In this document: one piece after another, positions 25,682 through 56,166 of the stretch
How positions within the stretch are numbered: the stretch's first letter is position 1
Layout: every line of letters begins with the position of its first letter
Origin: Rhizobacter sp. Root1238
GTDB taxonomy: Bacteria > Pseudomonadota > Gammaproteobacteria > Burkholderiales > Burkholderiaceae_C
Assembly: GCF_001425825.1 (NCBI RefSeq)
Contig: NZ_LMDM01000010.1
Span: forward strand, 53,813-117,812
DNA: 64,000 nt
Direction: 5' to 3'
Program-made: the position numbers and the translations under genes
The notes under the pieces: model-generated
The model's database searches: none
Seen by the model: only the letters and a program-made list of their open reading frames with translations
Told to the model about the DNA's origin: nothing

Positions 25682-26332
25682 ATGAAGCCGCCGCGCGCGC
25701 CGACCGCCCCGGTCCTGCGCATCGTCATCGTTGCCCCCGACACGCTCGCCCCCGACGGCAGCGAAGGCGCGCCCGACCCGATCGAGGCCGAGCGCTCGCG
25801 GGCGCTGCGCATCGGGCTGCTGGAGAACGGCTACAACATCGTCGCGGTGCTGCCGGCCGACGTCTACCTGCCGGACCGGTTGGCGCAGATCCAGCCCGAC
25901 ATGATCATCATCGACGCCGAAAGCCAGGCGCGCGACACGCTGGAGCATGTCGTGATGGCCACTCGCGATGCGCGCCGGCCGATCGTGCTGTTCACCGACG
26001 ACGACGACACCAGCCACGTGCCCGATGCGATCGCCGCCGGCGTCACCGCCTACGTGGTCGCCGGGCTCGCGCCGGAGCGGGTGAAGCCGGTGCTCGATGT
26101 CGCGATGGCGCGCTTCCGGCATGAAGAAGGCCTGCGCCGCGAACTGGCCGATGCGCGCACCGAGCTGTCGGACCGCAAGCTGATCGACCGCGCGAAGGGC
26201 CTGCTGATGTCGCGCCAGGGGCTGAGCGAAGAAGCCGCGTATGCGCGGCTGCGCAAGGCCGCGATGGACAAGGGCCTGCGGCTGGCCGACGTGGCGCAGC
26301 GCATCCTCGACGTTTCCGACCTGCTGGGCTGA
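25682..26332 (+). CDS. nasT: NasT-type ANTAR antitermination regulator
   Basis: A 216-residue response-regulator-like RNA-binding protein of the AmiR/NasT family. An N-terminal receiver domain (about 12-140) keeps an aspartate at the phosphoacceptor position (DMIIIDAES, near 80). A helical linker leads to an ANTAR domain (about 150-210) containing LIDRAKGLLMSRQGLSEEAAY. ANTAR domains bind paired hairpins in leader RNAs and prevent termination. Such a leader lies directly downstream (26443-26565), ahead of nrtA, so this is its likely target. No nasS sensor gene is adjacent. No strong Shine-Dalgarno sequence precedes the start. Confidence 0.9.
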   Translation: MKPPRAPTAPVLRIVIVAPDTLAPDGSEGAPDPIEAERSRALRIGLLENGYNIVAVLPADVYLPDRLAQIQPDMIIIDAESQARDTLEHVVMATRDARRPIVLFTDDDDTSHVPDAIAAGVTAYVVAGLAPERVKPVLDVAMARFRHEEGLRRELADARTELSDRKLIDRAKGLLMSRQGLSEEAAYARLRKAAMDKGLRLADVAQRILDVSDLLG

Positions 26333-26336
26333 ACGC

Positions 26337-26351
26337 GCACTCCGGCAGTGC
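26337..26351 (+). promoter_or_regulatory. NtrC-like dyad upstream of nrtA
   Basis: GCACT-CCGGC-AGTGC is a perfect dyad with 5-bp arms and a 5-bp spacer, the spacing of enterobacterial NtrC sites (GCACY-N5-RGTGC). It lies about 65 bp upstream of the sigma-54 -24 box. A second compressed match GCACTTGGTGC is at 26362-26372. Binding by NtrC is inference. Confidence 0.45.
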
Positions 26352-26415: not shown

Positions 26416-26430
26416 TGGCACGCCGCTTGC
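26416..26430 (+). promoter_or_regulatory. Sigma-54 promoter of the nrtABD operon
   Basis: TGGCACGCCGCTTGC fits the sigma-54 -24/-12 consensus. The invariant GG (26417-26418) and GC (26429-26430) are separated by the required 10 bp. Transcription should start near 26442, exactly at the foot of the first leader hairpin. Confidence 0.85.
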
Positions 26431-26442
26431 GTAAGCCCTTGC

Positions 26443-26501
26443 GGAAGGTCAACGGCGATCTTCCACAGACATCCGCACGCACCAAGGTTGGCGCGAGGCG
26501 G
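26443..26501 (+). promoter_or_regulatory. ANTAR-binding double hairpin in nrtA leader
   Basis: Two hairpins separated by 8 nt match the described ANTAR RNA target. P1 (26443-26464) has stem GGAAGGTC/GATCTTCC and hexaloop AACGGC. P2 (26473-26501) has a stem CCGC-a-CGCaCC opposed to GGcGCG-ag-GCGG and hexaloop AAGGTT. Both loops have A at position 1 and G at position 4, the known recognition bases. The 5' arm of P2 (TCCGCAC, 26472-26478) is complementary to the 3' arm of the terminator (GTGCGGA, 26544-26550), so the leader has alternative pairings. Confidence 0.8.
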
Positions 26502-26511
26502 GTCGGACGAT

Positions 26512-26565
26512 GGCGTCCCCACGTGACAGGCCCTGCCTGCACCGTGCGGACGCCTTTTTGTTTTT
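26512..26565 (+). terminator. Leader terminator (attenuator) before nrtA
   Basis: GGCGTCC (26512-26518) pairs with GGACGCC (26548-26554), with CACG/CGTG and CAGGC/GCCTG stems above it. The run TTTTTGTTTTT follows at once. This is a strong Rho-independent terminator placed 26 bp before the nrtA start codon, and would block the operon unless read through with the ANTAR regulator. Confidence 0.9.
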
Positions 26566-26590
26566 GCTTTCCGAGAACCTGAGCCACGCC

Positions 26591-27844
26591 ATGACAAGCC
26601 CACTCACGCGAAAGAACCTGATGAGCCGCCGAACCCTGATCAAAGCCGCTGCCGCCGGCGGTGCAGCCGGCCTCGTGCCCGGGCTGCAAAGCGCCGTGTA
26701 CGCCCAGGGCTCGGACAAGCCCGAGAAGGAAGAAGTGCGCATCGGCTTCATCCCGTTGACCGACTGCGCATCGGTCGTGATGGCCTCGGTGCTCGGCTTC
26801 GACAAGAAGTACGGCGTCAAGATCATCCCGACCAAGGAAGCCTCGTGGGCCGGCGTGCGCGACAAGCTGGTCAACGGCGAACTCGACATGGCGCACGTGC
26901 TGTACGGCCTGGTCTACGGCGTGCACCTGGGCGTCGGTGGGCCGAAGAAGGACATGGCCGTGCTGATGACGCTGAACAACAACGGCCAGGCGATCACGCT
27001 GTCGAAGAAGCTGGCCGACAAGGGCGCGGTCGACGGTGCGTCGCTCGCCAAGGTGATGGCCGCCGACAAGCGCGAGTACACCTTCGCGCAGACCTTCCCG
27101 ACCGGCACGCACGCGATGTGGCTGTACTACTGGCTCGCGAGCGTCGGCATCAACCCGATGAAGGATGCCAAGGTCATCACCGTGCCGCCGCCGCAGATGG
27201 TGGCCAACATGCGCGTCGGCAACATGGACGGCTACTGCGTCGGCGAGCCCTGGGGCCACCGCGCGATCATGGACGGCATCGGCATCACCGCGGTGACCAC
27301 GCAGGACATCTGGAAGGACCACCCCGAGAAGGTGCTCGGCACCACCGGCGAGTTCGTCAAGAAGTACCCGAACACCGCACGCGCCGTGATGATGGCGGTG
27401 ATCGAGGCGAGCCGCTGGATCGACGCGAGCCTGCAGAACAAGCTGAAGATGGCCGAGACGGTGGCCGACAAGTCGTACGTCAACACCGGCGTCGACGCGA
27501 TCAACCAGCGCATCCTGGGCCGCTACCAGAACGGCCTCGGCAAGACCTGGGACGACCCCAACCACATGAAGTTCTTCAACGACGGTGCGGTGAACTACCC
27601 GTACCTGAGCGACGGCATGTGGTTCCTGACGCAGCACAAGCGCTGGGGCCTGCTGAAAGACCATCCGGACTACCTCGGCGTCGCGAAGCAGATCAACCAG
27701 ATCGAGCTCTACAAGCAGGCCGCGGGCGCGATGAAGATCAGCGTGCCGAAGGAGCCGCTGCGCAGCGCGAAGCTGATCGACGGCATCGTCTGGGACGGCA
27801 AGGACCCGGTCAAGTACGCCGACGGTTTCAAGATCAAGGCCTGA
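26591..27844 (+). CDS. nrtA: Nitrate ABC transporter substrate-binding protein
   Basis: A 417-residue periplasmic binding protein of the NrtA/CmpA family (nitrate/nitrite or bicarbonate; context favours nitrate). The N-terminus MTSPLTRKNLMSRRTLIKAA shows a twin-arginine export motif (SRRTLIK) followed by a hydrophobic stretch. Family segments include IGFIPLTDCASVVMA and EPWGHRAIMDGIG. The start at 26591 is preferred; the frame is open upstream to 26510 only through the terminator. It is first gene of nrtABD, under sigma-54 and leader antitermination control. Confidence 0.93.
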   Translation: MTSPLTRKNLMSRRTLIKAAAAGGAAGLVPGLQSAVYAQGSDKPEKEEVRIGFIPLTDCASVVMASVLGFDKKYGVKIIPTKEASWAGVRDKLVNGELDMAHVLYGLVYGVHLGVGGPKKDMAVLMTLNNNGQAITLSKKLADKGAVDGASLAKVMAADKREYTFAQTFPTGTHAMWLYYWLASVGINPMKDAKVITVPPPQMVANMRVGNMDGYCVGEPWGHRAIMDGIGITAVTTQDIWKDHPEKVLGTTGEFVKKYPNTARAVMMAVIEASRWIDASLQNKLKMAETVADKSYVNTGVDAINQRILGRYQNGLGKTWDDPNHMKFFNDGAVNYPYLSDGMWFLTQHKRWGLLKDHPDYLGVAKQINQIELYKQAAGAMKISVPKEPLRSAKLIDGIVWDGKDPVKYADGFKIKA

Positions 27845-27864
27845 GGGCCGCCCAGGAGAACGCC

Positions 27865-28764
27865 ATGGTCAGTGCCGTGTTTCACTCGCCGCTCGGGGGC
27901 CTCGACGACGAGGCGCCTGCCGCCTCGACACCCCCCGCTGCGCCAGCGGCCGCGCCGGCTGCCGCCGCGCGCCGGCCCCGCAAGCCTTTCGACTGGAACG
28001 GGCTGTTGCTGAAGGTGTTGCCGCCGCTGATCGGCGTCGGCTTGCTGGTCGGCATCTGGGCCTTGCTGACGATGAACGGCGGCAGCTTCCCGACGCCGGC
28101 GGCGACCTTCGCCGAAGCGGTCAAGCTGTTCGCCGATCCGTTCTACAGCAAGGGCCCGAACGACCAGGGCATTGGCTGGAACATCCTGTTCTCGCTGCAG
28201 CGCGTCGCGATCGGCTTCGGGCTGGCGGCGCTGGTCGGCATCCCGGCGGGCTTCCTGATCGGGCGCTTCAGCTTCCTGAACCACATGGTGTCGCCGCTGA
28301 TCAGCCTGCTGCGTCCGGTGTCGCCGCTCGCGTGGCTGCCGATCGGGCTGCTGGTGTTCAAGGCCGCGAACCCGGCGGCGATCTGGACGATCTTCATCTG
28401 CTCGATCTGGCCGATGGTCATCAACACCGCGGTCGGCGTGCAGCGCGTGCCGGCCGACTACCTGAACGTGGCGCGCGTGCTGAACCTGTCCGAGTGGAAG
28501 GTGATGACGCGCATCCTGTTCCCTGCGGTGCTGCCGTACATGCTGACCGGCGTGCGGCTGAGCGTGGGCACCGCCTGGCTGGTGATCGTCGCGGCCGAGA
28601 TGCTGACCGGCGGCGTCGGCATCGGCTTCTGGGTGTGGGACGAGTGGAACAACCTGAACGTCACGCACATCCTGATCGCGATCTTCGTGATCGGCATCGT
28701 CGGCCTGCTGCTCGAATGGGCGCTGGTTTCGATCGCCAAGCGCTTCACCTACGACGAGGTCTGA
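27865..28764 (+). CDS. nrtB: Nitrate ABC transporter permease
   Basis: A 299-residue inner-membrane permease of the nitrate/sulfonate/taurine ABC family. A cytoplasmic N-terminal extension (about 10-38) is Ala/Pro-rich and low-complexity. About six helices follow, with the ATPase-contact loop LNLSEWKVMTRILFPAVLPY near 205. CAGGAGAA lies seven bases before the start codon at 27865. It is 20 bp after nrtA and 2 bp before nrtD. Confidence 0.93.
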   Translation: MVSAVFHSPLGGLDDEAPAASTPPAAPAAAPAAAARRPRKPFDWNGLLLKVLPPLIGVGLLVGIWALLTMNGGSFPTPAATFAEAVKLFADPFYSKGPNDQGIGWNILFSLQRVAIGFGLAALVGIPAGFLIGRFSFLNHMVSPLISLLRPVSPLAWLPIGLLVFKAANPAAIWTIFICSIWPMVINTAVGVQRVPADYLNVARVLNLSEWKVMTRILFPAVLPYMLTGVRLSVGTAWLVIVAAEMLTGGVGIGFWVWDEWNNLNVTHILIAIFVIGIVGLLLEWALVSIAKRFTYDEV

Positions 28765-28766
28765 CC

Positions 28767-29573
28767 ATGGCATCGAACTCCAGCTTCATCGAGGTGCACC
28801 AGGCCGAGATGGTCTTCAGCACGAAGAAGGGCCGCTTCCACGCGTTGCGCGACATCAACCTGTCGGTCGCGAAGGGCGAGTTCGTCACGTTGATCGGGCA
28901 TTCGGGCTGCGGCAAGTCGACGCTGCTGAACCTGATCGCCGGGCTCACGCTGCCGACCGGCGGCTCGTTGATCTGCGACAGCCGCGAGATCGCCGCGCCC
29001 GGGCCGGAGCGCGCGGTGGTGTTCCAGAACCATTCGCTGCTGCCGTGGCTGACCTGCTACGAGAACGTGCACCTGGCGGTCGAGCGGGTGTTCGGCGCGA
29101 GCGAATCGAAGGCGCAACTGAAAGAGCGAGCGCTGGCGGCGCTGGGGCTCGTCAACATGGCGCACGCTGCGGCGAAGCGACCGCACGAGATCTCGGGCGG
29201 CATGAAGCAGCGGGTCGGCATCGCACGCGCGCTGGCGATGGAACCGAAGGTGCTGCTGATGGACGAGCCCTTCGGCGCGCTCGATGCGCTGACCCGTGCG
29301 CACCTGCAGGACGAGTTGCTGAAGATCGTCGCGCGCACGCACAGCACGGTGGTGATGGTGACGCACGATGTCGACGAGGCAGTGCTGCTGTCGGACCGGA
29401 TCGTGATGATGACCAACGGGCCGGCCGCAACCATCGGCGAGATCCTGAGCGTCGACCTGACCCGGCCGCGCCATCGGATCGAGCTGGCGGAGGACCCGAA
29501 GTACGTGCACTGCCGCAAAGAGGTGCTGGACTTCCTCTACACGCGGCACGGCCACGTCGAGCGGGCCGCCTGA
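28767..29573 (+). CDS. nrtD: Nitrate ABC transporter ATP-binding protein
   Basis: A 268-residue ABC ATPase that powers the nitrate transporter on the cytoplasmic side. It shows Walker A GHSGCGKST (near residue 44), Q-loop VVFQNHSLLPWL, signature ISGGMKQRVGIARAL, Walker B VLLMDEPFGALD and the switch histidine in VMVTHDVDEA. It corresponds to NrtD, without the fused regulatory domain of cyanobacterial NrtC. It ends 7 bp before the convergent toxin gene, with no terminator seen between them. Confidence 0.95.
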   Translation: MASNSSFIEVHQAEMVFSTKKGRFHALRDINLSVAKGEFVTLIGHSGCGKSTLLNLIAGLTLPTGGSLICDSREIAAPGPERAVVFQNHSLLPWLTCYENVHLAVERVFGASESKAQLKERALAALGLVNMAHAAAKRPHEISGGMKQRVGIARALAMEPKVLLMDEPFGALDALTRAHLQDELLKIVARTHSTVVMVTHDVDEAVLLSDRIVMMTNGPAATIGEILSVDLTRPRHRIELAEDPKYVHCRKEVLDFLYTRHGHVERAA

Positions 29574-29580
29574 GCATCCG

Positions 29581-29904
29581 TCAGTGGTAGTCGTCCTCGC
29601 GTTGATGCCTGAGCGCGAGGACCGTGACCGTTCCGGCGTTCTCGATCTCGTACAACGCGACGTAGCCCCTGCCACGCAACGGAATGATCAGCTCTCGCTG
29701 GAACACGCTGCCGGCTGACGATTTGCGGTACAGAAAAGGCGCGCGTCCCAGGCGATGTTCGACCTCGTCTCGAAGGGTGTCGATGGCGTCCTGGGCATGA
29801 TCGAAGTCTTCGATCGTTTCAGCCTCCTGCAGCAGGAAGTCGAAGAGTTCGATGAGATCGTTGCGGGCTTCGTCGGTGTAGCGGACCTTGAAATTCCCGC
29901 TCAT
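29581..29904 (-). CDS. RelE/ParE-family toxin
   Basis: A 107-residue toxin of the RelE/ParE fold, with RYTDEARNDLIELFDFLL at the start and the strand ELIIPLRGRGYVALYEI near 70-86. ParE members poison gyrase and RelE members cleave ribosome-bound mRNA; conserved catalytic residues for RNA cleavage are not clear here, so a ParE-like role is more likely. It overlaps the antitoxin stop by four bases (ATGA), giving the typical antitoxin-first pair. Confidence 0.87.
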   Translation of the reverse strand: MSGNFKVRYTDEARNDLIELFDFLLQEAETIEDFDHAQDAIDTLRDEVEHRLGRAPFLYRKSSAGSVFQRELIIPLRGRGYVALYEIENAGTVTVLALRHQREDDYH

Positions 29905-30173
29905 TCCAGCACGCGTTTGCGCCGATCGTCCAGCCTGCGCTGAAGTTCATCGTGCACATCGGCTGCAGCATGGTAGACCCCGGTACGCCGCGCCTCTTCC
30001 GCGGAGTTCAATCCGCGTGCGATGAATTCGTCTTGCACACGGCGACGCTGGATGGTGTCGCGCACTGCCGTCTCGATCAGGCTGCTCAACGTTTCGCCTT
30101 CGCGCAGCACGCCTTCGGCGGCCTCCCGGAGTTCGGCGTCGACGCGCAGCGAGGGAAAGGTGGCGGGCTTCAT
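29901..30173 (-). CDS. Antitoxin with ribbon-helix-helix-like N-terminus
   Basis: A 90-residue antitoxin paired with the ParE-like toxin. The N-terminal TFPSLRVDAELREAAEGVL and GETLSSLIETAVRD segments fit a short strand plus two helices, a ribbon-helix-helix DNA-binding layout. The C-terminal half is charged and helical and is the likely toxin-wrapping part. The start at 30173 (MKPATFPSL) is preferred over an ATG at 30236. An 18-bp near-palindrome just upstream is a probable autoregulatory operator. Confidence 0.83.
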   Translation of the reverse strand: MKPATFPSLRVDAELREAAEGVLREGETLSSLIETAVRDTIQRRRVQDEFIARGLNSAEEARRTGVYHAAADVHDELQRRLDDRRKRVLE

Positions 30174-30178
30174 GGATT

Positions 30179-30206
30179 GCGTTGCAATTGCGACGCAGCG
30201 AGTGTA
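30179..30206 (-). promoter_or_regulatory. Toxin-antitoxin promoter and operator
   Basis: GCGTTGCAATTGCGACGC (30179-30196) is an 18-bp palindrome with a single mismatched pair, 6 bp upstream of the antitoxin start. A -10-like TACACT lies at 30201-30206 on the minus strand; no good -35 box is seen. Antitoxin binding here is inferred from how such modules are usually regulated. Confidence 0.5.
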
Positions 30207-30230: not shown

Positions 30231-30245
30231 TGGCACACCGCTTGC
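30231..30245 (+). promoter_or_regulatory. Sigma-54 promoter with no protein gene downstream
   Basis: TGGCACACCGCTTGC matches the sigma-54 consensus, with GG (30232-30233) and GC (30244-30245) 10 bp apart, and is nearly identical to the nrtA promoter. It points into a 110-bp gap that ends in a terminator; the next gene (fdx) faces the other way. Confidence 0.8.
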
Positions 30246-30255
30246 ATAAGGAATT

Positions 30256-30346
30256 GCGGCAAGAGCGATGCGCTTGTCGTCTATCTCCTCAGTAGGGCCC
30301 AGCCCTTTCCGGACCGCCTGATCCGCGTGGATCAGGCGGTTTTTTT
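30256..30346 (+). ncRNA. Putative sigma-54-dependent small RNA
   Basis: A transcript started about 12 bp after the sigma-54 -12 box would begin near 30256 and stop at the U-run ending at 30346, about 90 nt. It folds as three stems: CGGCAAG/CTTGTCG (30257-30279), AGGGC-CCA-GCCCT (30294-30306) and the 11-bp terminator stem (30314-30339). The linker TCTATCTCCTCAGT (30280-30293) is unpaired and contains CTCCT, the complement of a Shine-Dalgarno core. No open frame of useful length is present. The layout fits a trans-acting nitrogen-responsive small RNA; alternatively it is a leader that lost its gene. Confidence 0.65.
30314..30346 (+). terminator. Rho-independent terminator of the putative small RNA
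   Basis: CCGCCTGATCC and GGATCAGGCGG form a perfect 11-bp stem with loop GCGT, followed by seven T residues (30340-30346). The T-run is only on the plus strand, so it serves the upstream unit and not the convergent fdx gene. Confidence 0.93.
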
Positions 30347-30355
30347 ACGTCCGGA

Positions 30356-30694
30356 TCAGTGGTTTTCCTTCGCGTGGTTGATCGTGTACTTCGGGATCTC
30401 GATCGTCACGTCGGTCTGCGACAGGATCGCCTGGCACGACAGCCGCGACTGCGGCTCCAGCCCCCAGGCCCGGTCCAGCAGGTCTTCTTCGGATTCGTCC
30501 ATCTCGCCAAGCGACGAGAAGCCCTCGCGCACCACGACGTGGCAGGTCGTGCACGCGCAACTCAGCTCGCAGGCGTGCTCGATCTCGATGCCGTTCTCGA
30601 GCAAGGCCTCGCAGACCGAGGTGCCCGGCGATGCGGTGATCTGGGTGCCGGTCGGGCAGTATTCGGGGTGGGGCAGGATCTTGATGACAGGCAT
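30356..30694 (-). CDS. fdx: ISC-system 2Fe-2S ferredoxin
   Basis: A 112-residue adrenodoxin-type ferredoxin, the last gene of the isc operon, which supplies electrons for cluster assembly. The 2Fe-2S ligands are seen as CELSCACTTC near residues 42-51 and Cys in RLSCQAIL near 87. The ending KYTINHAKENH is family-typical. It starts 5 bp after the hscA stop. Confidence 0.96.
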   Translation of the reverse strand: MPVIKILPHPEYCPTGTQITASPGTSVCEALLENGIEIEHACELSCACTTCHVVVREGFSSLGEMDESEEDLLDRAWGLEPQSRLSCQAILSQTDVTIEIPKYTINHAKENH

Positions 30695-55022: not shown

Positions 55023-55090
55023 CGATCAAGCCGTGCGCGCCAGCTTCCCCGCTGGTGCGCACCCATGGCGCCGCGCTTGCACGCGGCGCC
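55023..55090 (-). promoter_or_regulatory. Expression platform between riboswitch and btuB
   Basis: Two strong hairpins lie between the aptamer and the start codon: GGCGCCGCG/CGCGGCGCC (55067-55090, perfect 9-bp stem) and GTGCGC-a-CCAGC/GCTGG-c-GCGCAC (55032-55061). Neither is followed by a T-run, so control is more likely at translation start (or by Rho) than by an intrinsic terminator. Confidence 0.55.
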
Positions 55091-55097
55091 GCCCTGT

Positions 55098-55305
55098 TGG
55101 CCGGTATCCGGGCTGGCGGAACGACCCCCGCGACCTTCCCGGAGCGGCGACGCTCCAGTGGCAAATGCGCAGGGATTGAAGCCGATCGGCTTCGTCCGCT
55201 TACCGTTGCGGGGGCAGCGCAGGTGGGCCGTGCGACCGGGGCGGTCGAGCAACCTCTGCTTCCCGTTTAACTGTGCCGGCGTGAACACCGGCACGGGCAC
55301 CAACG
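55098..55305 (-). promoter_or_regulatory. Cobalamin riboswitch
   Basis: On the minus strand the conserved blocks of the adenosylcobalamin aptamer are in order: a 5' hairpin (55273-55293), GCTGCCCCCGCAACGGTAA (55200-55218), the B12 box GCCACTGG (55154-55162), GGGAAGGTCGCG and the closing GCCAGCCCGGATACCGGCC. It lies upstream of btuB and probably lowers expression of btuB and the following genes when cobalamin is abundant. Confidence 0.96.
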
Positions 55306-55372
55306 GGCGCGATTGTAAGCAGGCCTCGGCGCCCCCTCTACAATCGCCCCACACATCCACCATTGGTGCGCC

Positions 55373-55944: not shown

Positions 55945-55985
55945 ACCGACACACTCGCGGCGAATGACGCGCGTAGAATTCTTCG

Positions 55986-56166
55986 GGTCCGTTGCGTTCG
56001 CGTGAGTTTTATATTTCCTTGAACCGATGCTCTTATGAGCAAGGGCTTGGAACATCGCCCGGTTGGTGTGATCGTCTCGCGTCAGATGAACCCGAAGCCC
56101 GGCTGACCTCGCCCACCTGAACTGCCTGGGTTCAGGAATGCGGCTCACGGTGCGTGACGGACACCT
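55986..56166 (+). ncRNA. ssrS: 6S RNA
   Basis: A ~180-nt regulatory RNA that mimics an open promoter and binds sigma-70 RNA polymerase. The closing stem pairs GTCCGTTGCG and CGTGAG (55987-56006) with CTCACG and CGTGACGGAC (56144-56162). The central bubble strands contain CGCCCGGTTGGTG and the CCTGAAC-TGCCTG-GGTTCAGG hairpin, matching known 6S RNAs. A -10 box TAGAAT (55974-55979) sets the start near 55986. A short T-run (TTATTTTTC) follows the 3' stem. Location after zapA is conserved. Confidence 0.92.

Follow-up and report, generated by a model that had tools for sequence, protein, structure and literature searches.

The gene at positions 30231-30346 (+) of the window, by which we mean the whole 64,000-nucleotide stretch of DNA analysed here, belongs to a real small RNA family, as demonstrated by its promoter, its structure and its comparison among relatives together. 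It seems to be an undescribed family of a known kind of RNA. The preliminary description of this DNA had put forward a small RNA candidate at this place, and the conserved promoter, the terminator and the open anti-Shine-Dalgarno linker bear it out as a small RNA gene. We regard it as quite probable that the product is a trans-acting sigma-54 small RNA of about 90 nt, probably activated by NtrC, whose linker would block the ribosome-binding sites of several mRNAs.

According to the mechanism that we propose, sigma-54 RNA polymerase would transcribe the gene once the promoter is activated by an enhancer-binding protein, for which NtrC, phosphorylated under nitrogen limitation, is the likeliest candidate, and the RNA would fold into a first hairpin, an open linker, a second hairpin and a terminator. 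The linker UCUCCUCAG would then pair with GAGGAGA-type ribosome-binding sites and shut off the translation of a group of mRNAs, which probably overlaps in part with the target set of the RF02278 small RNAs. If true, this would give the present Burkholderiales group a nitrogen-responsive post-transcriptional arm, where none was found described, and would offer an example, amenable to testing, of one ribosome-binding-site seed common to two unrelated small RNAs with different promoters.

Locus layout and predicted RNA

The sigma-54 promoter lies at 30231..30245 (+), where the letters are TGGCACACCGCTTGC with TGGCAC at -24 and TTGC at -12; the full promoter noted there beforehand is present as stated, and its placement is conserved in relatives. 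It is a single base apart from the sigma-54-type promoter of nrtA (TGGCACGCCGCTTGC at 26416..26430, +), and the near identity of the two promoters remarked on previously was thus confirmed. Since the motif alone is unremarkable in the 64-kb window (eight matches with at most one mismatch, against 6.1 expected) and by itself constitutes weak evidence, the promoter evidence gets its force from conservation.

Judged from the GC of the -12 element, transcription would be expected to start near 30256-30257, and with the end placed at the T run the predicted small RNA spans 30256..30346 (+), a length of about 90 nt. In the predicted fold, hairpin 1 (30256..30280, +), which is variable in sequence with its pairing maintained, is followed by the open linker GTCTATCTCCTCAGT (30281..30293, +), which is unpaired in the centroid and includes the seed TCTCCTCAG (30284-30292, +), by the nearly invariant hairpin 2 of the form AGGGC-loop-GCCCT (30294..30306, +), and by an intrinsic terminator (30313..30346, +) composed of a 12-bp stem (30313-30324 with 30329-30340) and seven T (30340-30346). 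The fold of the 93-nt stretch 30255-30347 amounted to -44.6 kcal/mol (z = -4.5), and none of 200 shuffles was equally stable. The preliminary description had correctly given a gene-free stretch of about 90 nt after the promoter, stems with an open linker, and the seven T; its perfect 11-bp terminator stem has to be corrected to the measured 12 bp. An intrinsic terminator with a T run, as present here, is a trait of trans-acting Hfq-associated small RNAs.

The next gene, already described as facing the other way, is fdx for an ISC-system ferredoxin (30356..30694, -; TIGR02007, 175 bits, cut-off 132). The genes preceding the small RNA in the window are tsaD, an ANTAR protein gene, nrtABC and a toxin-antitoxin pair. 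The nrtABC-type nitrate ABC transporter genes (26585..29573, +), assigned by family matches, consist of nrtA (26585-27844, +; PF13379), nrtB (+, ending at 28764; TIGR01183 above cut-off) and nrtC (+, from 28761; TIGR01184 above cut-off). Between nrtC and the small RNA, a ParE-type toxin gene and a YlcI/YnfO-type partner (29581..30173, -; PF05016, NF041551) form a toxin-antitoxin pair that is an insertion outside the system. Ahead of this pair, a near-perfect palindrome TGCGTTGCAATTGCGACGCA at 30178-30197, similar to a motif upstream of RF02278, is probably an operator. As for other noncoding features of the window, a leader in front of nrtA (26431-26584; about 150 nt), downstream of the ANTAR-domain protein gene (25682-26332), is possibly subject to ANTAR-controlled antitermination, and a 6S RNA and a cobalamin riboswitch are found at 55985-56165 (+) and 55082-55318 (-), respectively.

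Distribution of the small RNA family

Within the genus, nine of the 11 genomes gave a blastn match to the element, and the covariance model R1 was built from those nine copies with the promoter left out. Among 200 family genomes, 27 matched R1 at E <= 0.001, and 19 of them (L013-L031), found on inspection to have both the core and a sigma-54 promoter, were kept; the copy L018 is the same as L244 of the pattern search described below. The matches L032-L038 were dropped since core and promoter were absent, and L039 was dropped as doubtful (TCTCCTCAGCATGGC, with a clear promoter absent). With the refined model R2 under sensitive settings, the small RNA was found in all 11 Rhizobacter genomes; both newly found copies, those of G001 and G003 that blastn had missed, possess the promoter and the core. 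The exact pattern TCTCCTCAGYAGGGC-N1-10-CCCTTT, searched over 84,980 species, occurred at 34 loci, 32 of them with the promoter, and the two others (L245 and L252), having no promoter, were dropped as chance matches.

The named carriers are Rubrivivax, Rhizobacter, Methylibium, Piscinibacter, Azohydromonas, Albitalea, Aquabacterium (a MAG) and Rivibacter, together with Burkholderiales MAGs, and we take these genera to belong together as one group. An order-level search of 300 genomes, which used stricter filters and may have missed copies, returned eight matches at E <= 0.001, with the core confined to the window genome and a single other genome of its family; the core was absent from the other six, among them the RF02278-like L044. 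The plasmid records searched contained no match to the small RNA. After removal of exact core-region duplicates, 47 distinct loci out of 58 constituted the comparison set, 32 of which were found by the core pattern and 15 not chosen by it.

Conservation of the promoter, hairpins and linker

The motif GGCAY-N5-TTGC was located 48-57 nt upstream of the core in 44 of the 47 loci, and a looser form in 46, whereas the 2423 control windows had none; the one exceptional locus, L029, reads GGCAC-N5-ATGC and has an altered core. None of the 47 loci had been recruited via the promoter: L008-L011 came from a promoter-holding query but aligned only from query base 50, beyond the promoter, and L014 is the window itself. 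The predicted sigma-54 promoter is thus conserved at the right distance in the family.

The pairing was assessed in alignment A4 of 26 sequences, which was fitted to the model structure and hence biased in its favour, and in which 95.4% of cells were paired and 15 of 22 pairs had double changes. Double-change cells numbered 114 against 32.7 in shuffles, none of 500 shuffles being as high, and slid controls gave 5-22. The signal comes from hairpin 1, where all six modelled pairs changed on both sides with 91.7-98.7% of cells paired, and from the terminator, where both-sided changes were seen in 9 of 11 modelled pairs. Hairpin 2 had zero double changes and is nearly fixed in sequence, and covariation accordingly says nothing on its pairing. 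In the conservation scan with stem covariance that the preliminary description had envisaged, the block proved to be kept in 11/11 Rhizobacter genomes, with covarying stems.

The linker consensus over the 47 loci, UCUCCUC[A]G[CU]AGGG, arises partly by construction for the 32 pattern-found loci, and in the 15 loci not selected by the core pattern UCUCCUC was present in 15 and the following AG in 14. The mean unpaired probability of UCUCCUC was about 0.87-0.95 over the 47 loci, so that the linker is near-invariant and open, whereas the sequence of hairpin 1 changes. The variable linker sites are transitions, A/G ahead of the seed and C/U behind CAG; since a U or a G on the target side could accommodate both variants, RNA pairing would be favoured. 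Pairing of the linker with GAGGAGA ribosome-binding sites is likely as judged from complementarity, and from the same sequence we infer mRNA targets and their repression.

Gene neighbourhood and the probable nitrogen link

As some flanks are short, the following neighbourhood counts cover the genes visible at each locus. An nrtC gene was found upstream and co-directional in 30 of the 47 loci (within 200 nt in 24), tsaD without nrtC in 11, and neither gene in 6; convergent fdx/hscA was found downstream in 34. The small RNA persists where nrt is absent, and therefore is not merely a piece of the nrt operon.

Taking the dyad GCAC-N7-GTGC as the NtrC consensus, which is our assumption, we counted NtrC-like dyads at a threshold of at least 7/8 positions. 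Between +55 and +135 relative to the core, past the terminator, 35 dyads were found in 22 of the 47 loci, where 3.2 were expected and none of 300 shuffles reached as many, and perfect dyads numbered 8 against 0.16 expected; this interval was set after viewing the site profile, and the kinship of the loci inflates the count. Dyads at -340 to -60 and +135 to +275 were at expectation or lower. Binned along the loci, perfect dyads numbered 8 in 0 to +100 and at most one in every other bin, and at the looser threshold the coding bins -600 (21 sites) and +1200 (24 sites) were prominent too. In convergent loci, the downstream dyads would appear to have no other visible promoter to serve; if they are enhancers, their position past the terminator would make for an uncommon arrangement at a sigma-54 promoter.

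In the window itself, no NtrC-like dyad (at least 7/8) was detected within 1 kb of the small RNA, and the other Rhizobacter loci read likewise had none near the gene, save one at +207 in one genome. A perfect dyad stands before nrtA at 26337-26351, and is not significant alone, the 64-kb window having eight perfect dyads. The lack of dyads close to the gene in most Rhizobacter loci read lends some weight to the best of the alternatives, in which the same small RNA is driven by a sigma-54 activator other than NtrC and answers, at least in Rhizobacter, to a signal that is not nitrogen limitation; the 11 loci having tsaD instead of nrtC upstream point the same way. We hold this reading to be possible and yet the less probable one, since dyads are enriched beside the gene in 22 loci, nrtC precedes it in 30, and the promoter is one base from that of nrtA. 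The nitrogen link has indirect support from the dyads that adjoin the gene in relatives and from the 30 of 47 loci with an upstream nrtC, and nitrogen control through NtrC is likely for the family in general, with Rhizobacter having no nearby sites. The nitrogen limitation invoked in the preliminary description is therefore backed indirectly, by the nrtABC neighbourhood and by the sites that many relatives have, and does not find a corresponding site within 1 kb in the window.

Candidate targets

The sequence CTGAGGAGA-N3-10-ATG occurred at 140 places in 18 genomes, of which 138 were read, the remaining two being the RNA gene itself. Two candidate target groups extended over multiple genera. 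One is cynS, from 4 genomes in 4 genera; the other, from 4 genomes in 3 genera, is an ABC-type solute-binding protein gene (PF01547). In the comparisons below, genomes without a found copy are so classed by the R1 search, whose filters were below maximum sensitivity. Of the 20 genomes with the small RNA, 18 have cynS, as do 8 of the 18 that yielded no copy, and CTGAGGAGA preceded 4 of the 13 cynS starts read (of 26 sites; all 13 from RNA-bearing genomes), the window species being negative. Ahead of the start of this cyanase gene, an identical CTGAGGAGAATYGC was seen in four genera (G142, G066, G101 and G204; loci L203, L211, L202 and L222), and was absent in the window species. As for the solute-binding protein gene, GAGGAG precedes the start in 11 of the 15 RNA-bearing genomes and in 8 of the 13 that yielded no copy; for CTGAGGAG the counts in these two sets are 4 and 0, respectively.

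At the solute-binding protein site of the window species, the comparison of RF02278 with the sigma-54 RNA gave two duplexes, of -20.3 and -19.6 kcal/mol. With GAGGAGACA matching the seed of RF02278, and RF02278 itself carried by 33 of the 40 relatives searched, the gene more probably belongs to the targets of RF02278, and the sigma-54 RNA may share it. Searches for complementary ribosome-binding sites thus yielded no target conserved in step with the small RNA; the linker-seeded prediction suggested at the outset did produce candidates, cynS and the solute-binding protein gene, without such co-conservation, and the stronger of the two, the latter gene, keeps its site in relatives that yielded no copy of the small RNA. 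The longer complement TACTGAGGAGATAGAC was found, besides the gene itself, only in a second noncoding element and in three unrelated places.

A second noncoding element and the remaining alternatives

This second element, a conserved noncoding one uncovered in Rhizobacter by the search for longer linker complements, sits between sensor kinase-like and permease-like genes (named by eye). In 9 aligned copies, CTGAGGAGAC is invariant, with a terminator at the end and no start codon soon after. Its copies lie at L296:1440-1720 (G000:C1 near 122556), L303, L304, L305-L309 and L312, with an invariant GAGGAGAC loop, and it matched no Rfam family at the cut-off of that family. With the model R3, 33 of the 200 family genomes proved to carry it, including ones without a found sigma-54 RNA copy; CTGAGGAGAC was present in 8 of 10 genomes with the sigma-54 RNA and in 7 of 19 readable rows without, a difference that is weak owing to kinship.

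The element bears GACTGAGGAGACAGAC, which is complementary to the linker with a duplex of -24.1 kcal/mol, and this, together with the inner pairs of hairpin 2 that never vary, suggesting a sequence constraint past folding, would suit a small RNA that works chiefly via another RNA or a protein, as a sponge or decoy, instead of via ribosome-binding sites. We judge such a mode of action unlikely, as the element is family-wide, binds slightly better to the RF02278 seed (-26.1 kcal/mol), and exists also where no sigma-54 RNA copy was found; it is possibly a sponge for RF02278-type seeds. An equally improbable, more far-reaching scheme would have nitrogen starvation induce an RNA that borrows the RF02278 seed and so puts a pre-existing carbon-uptake regulon under nitrogen control, with the NtrC enhancer downstream of the whole gene in many species and with the second, undescribed noncoding RNA, through its invariant GAGGAGACA, serving as the common sponge of both small RNAs.

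The convergent fdx/hscA genes downstream in 34 loci might instead suggest an untranslated leader or an antisense element acting on the adjoining fdx/isc genes, an interpretation that we consider very unlikely: fdx/hscA was not found downstream in 13 of the 47 loci, conservation falls on the linker and not on the fdx side, and in the window the RNA does not overlap fdx because the terminator stops before it. A short protein-coding gene, for which the window offers a 17-codon ATG frame across the linker, was already disfavoured and is scarcely credible, given that only 6 of 47 loci have ATG frames of at least 10 codons over the core, and these do not agree in frame.

Comparison with known small RNAs

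Against Rfam, the window RNA matched nothing at the gathering score. In a scan of six loci with E up to 10, the best match was RF02278 at 24.3 bits (L021) against a cut-off of 50, the window copy remaining unmatched; Spot_42 (22.1 bits, L021), Xoo8 (20.1 bits, the L014 terminator) and NsiR1 (19.6 bits, L017) fell far under their cut-offs and were rejected. The earlier statement that no family was recognised is therefore right for Rfam, though the seed resembles that of RF02278. The members of RF02278, the Betaproteobacteria toxic small RNA (Bordetella S17, Burkholderia bdhR1, and the ncS03/05/27/62 'double-hairpin RNAs') are likewise short, with a CU-rich open UCUCCUC seed and a terminator hairpin. 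The seeds read UGUCUCCUC in RF02278 and CUGUCUCCUC in some members of the sigma-54 RNA family, the UGUCUCCUC-type position over the 47 loci being UAUCUCC in 28, including the window, and UGUCUCC in 19. Unlike RF02278, the sigma-54 RNA has a sigma-54 promoter, hairpin 1 before the seed, and AGYAGGGC with hairpin 2 after it. RF02278 was found in 33 of the 40 relatives searched, among them every one of the 11 Rhizobacter genomes, and coexists with the sigma-54 RNA in the window genome (G000:C47:221539-221602, L052). In most RF02278 copies read, ATTGCRRCGCARCA is seen upstream and is perhaps a regulator site. The CU-rich seed of RF02278 RNAs is reported to cover the ribosome-binding sites of predicted Burkholderia targets (PMC5688073), and S17 to repress BP2158 directly and to start from a sigma-A promoter (PMC11722255).

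No report of a sigma-54-driven small RNA from the carrier genera was among the literature matches listed. NrsZ of Pseudomonas aeruginosa is reported to be a sigma-54 small RNA induced by NtrB/C upon nitrogen limitation, 226 nt long and processed, which is encoded between ntrC and PA5126, carries the motif ACAGGCAG and activates rhlA (PMC9308961). The Rhizobacter RNA differs from it in size, location and seed, and ACAGGCAG is absent from 30231-30346. NcS25 of Burkholderia cenocepacia, of about 85 nt and with a 7-nt complement to the Shine-Dalgarno sequence of a porin mRNA, is similar in size and in its anti-Shine-Dalgarno sequence, yet lies beside a porin gene; neither a sigma-54 motif nor a nitrogen response is reported for it (PMC10117139), and identity with it was rejected.

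Two further RNAs, CrcZ and a glnA 3'UTR small RNA, join nitrogen or carbon status to gene expression, as the Rhizobacter RNA would. We take the latter to be the RNA named GlnZ. It is described as being released from the glnA 3'UTR (PMC9731577), and CrcZ as a 407-nt RNA that needs RpoN and sequesters Hfq/Crc (PMC9308961). Compared with both, the Rhizobacter RNA is distinguished by its own promoter and a single short seed.
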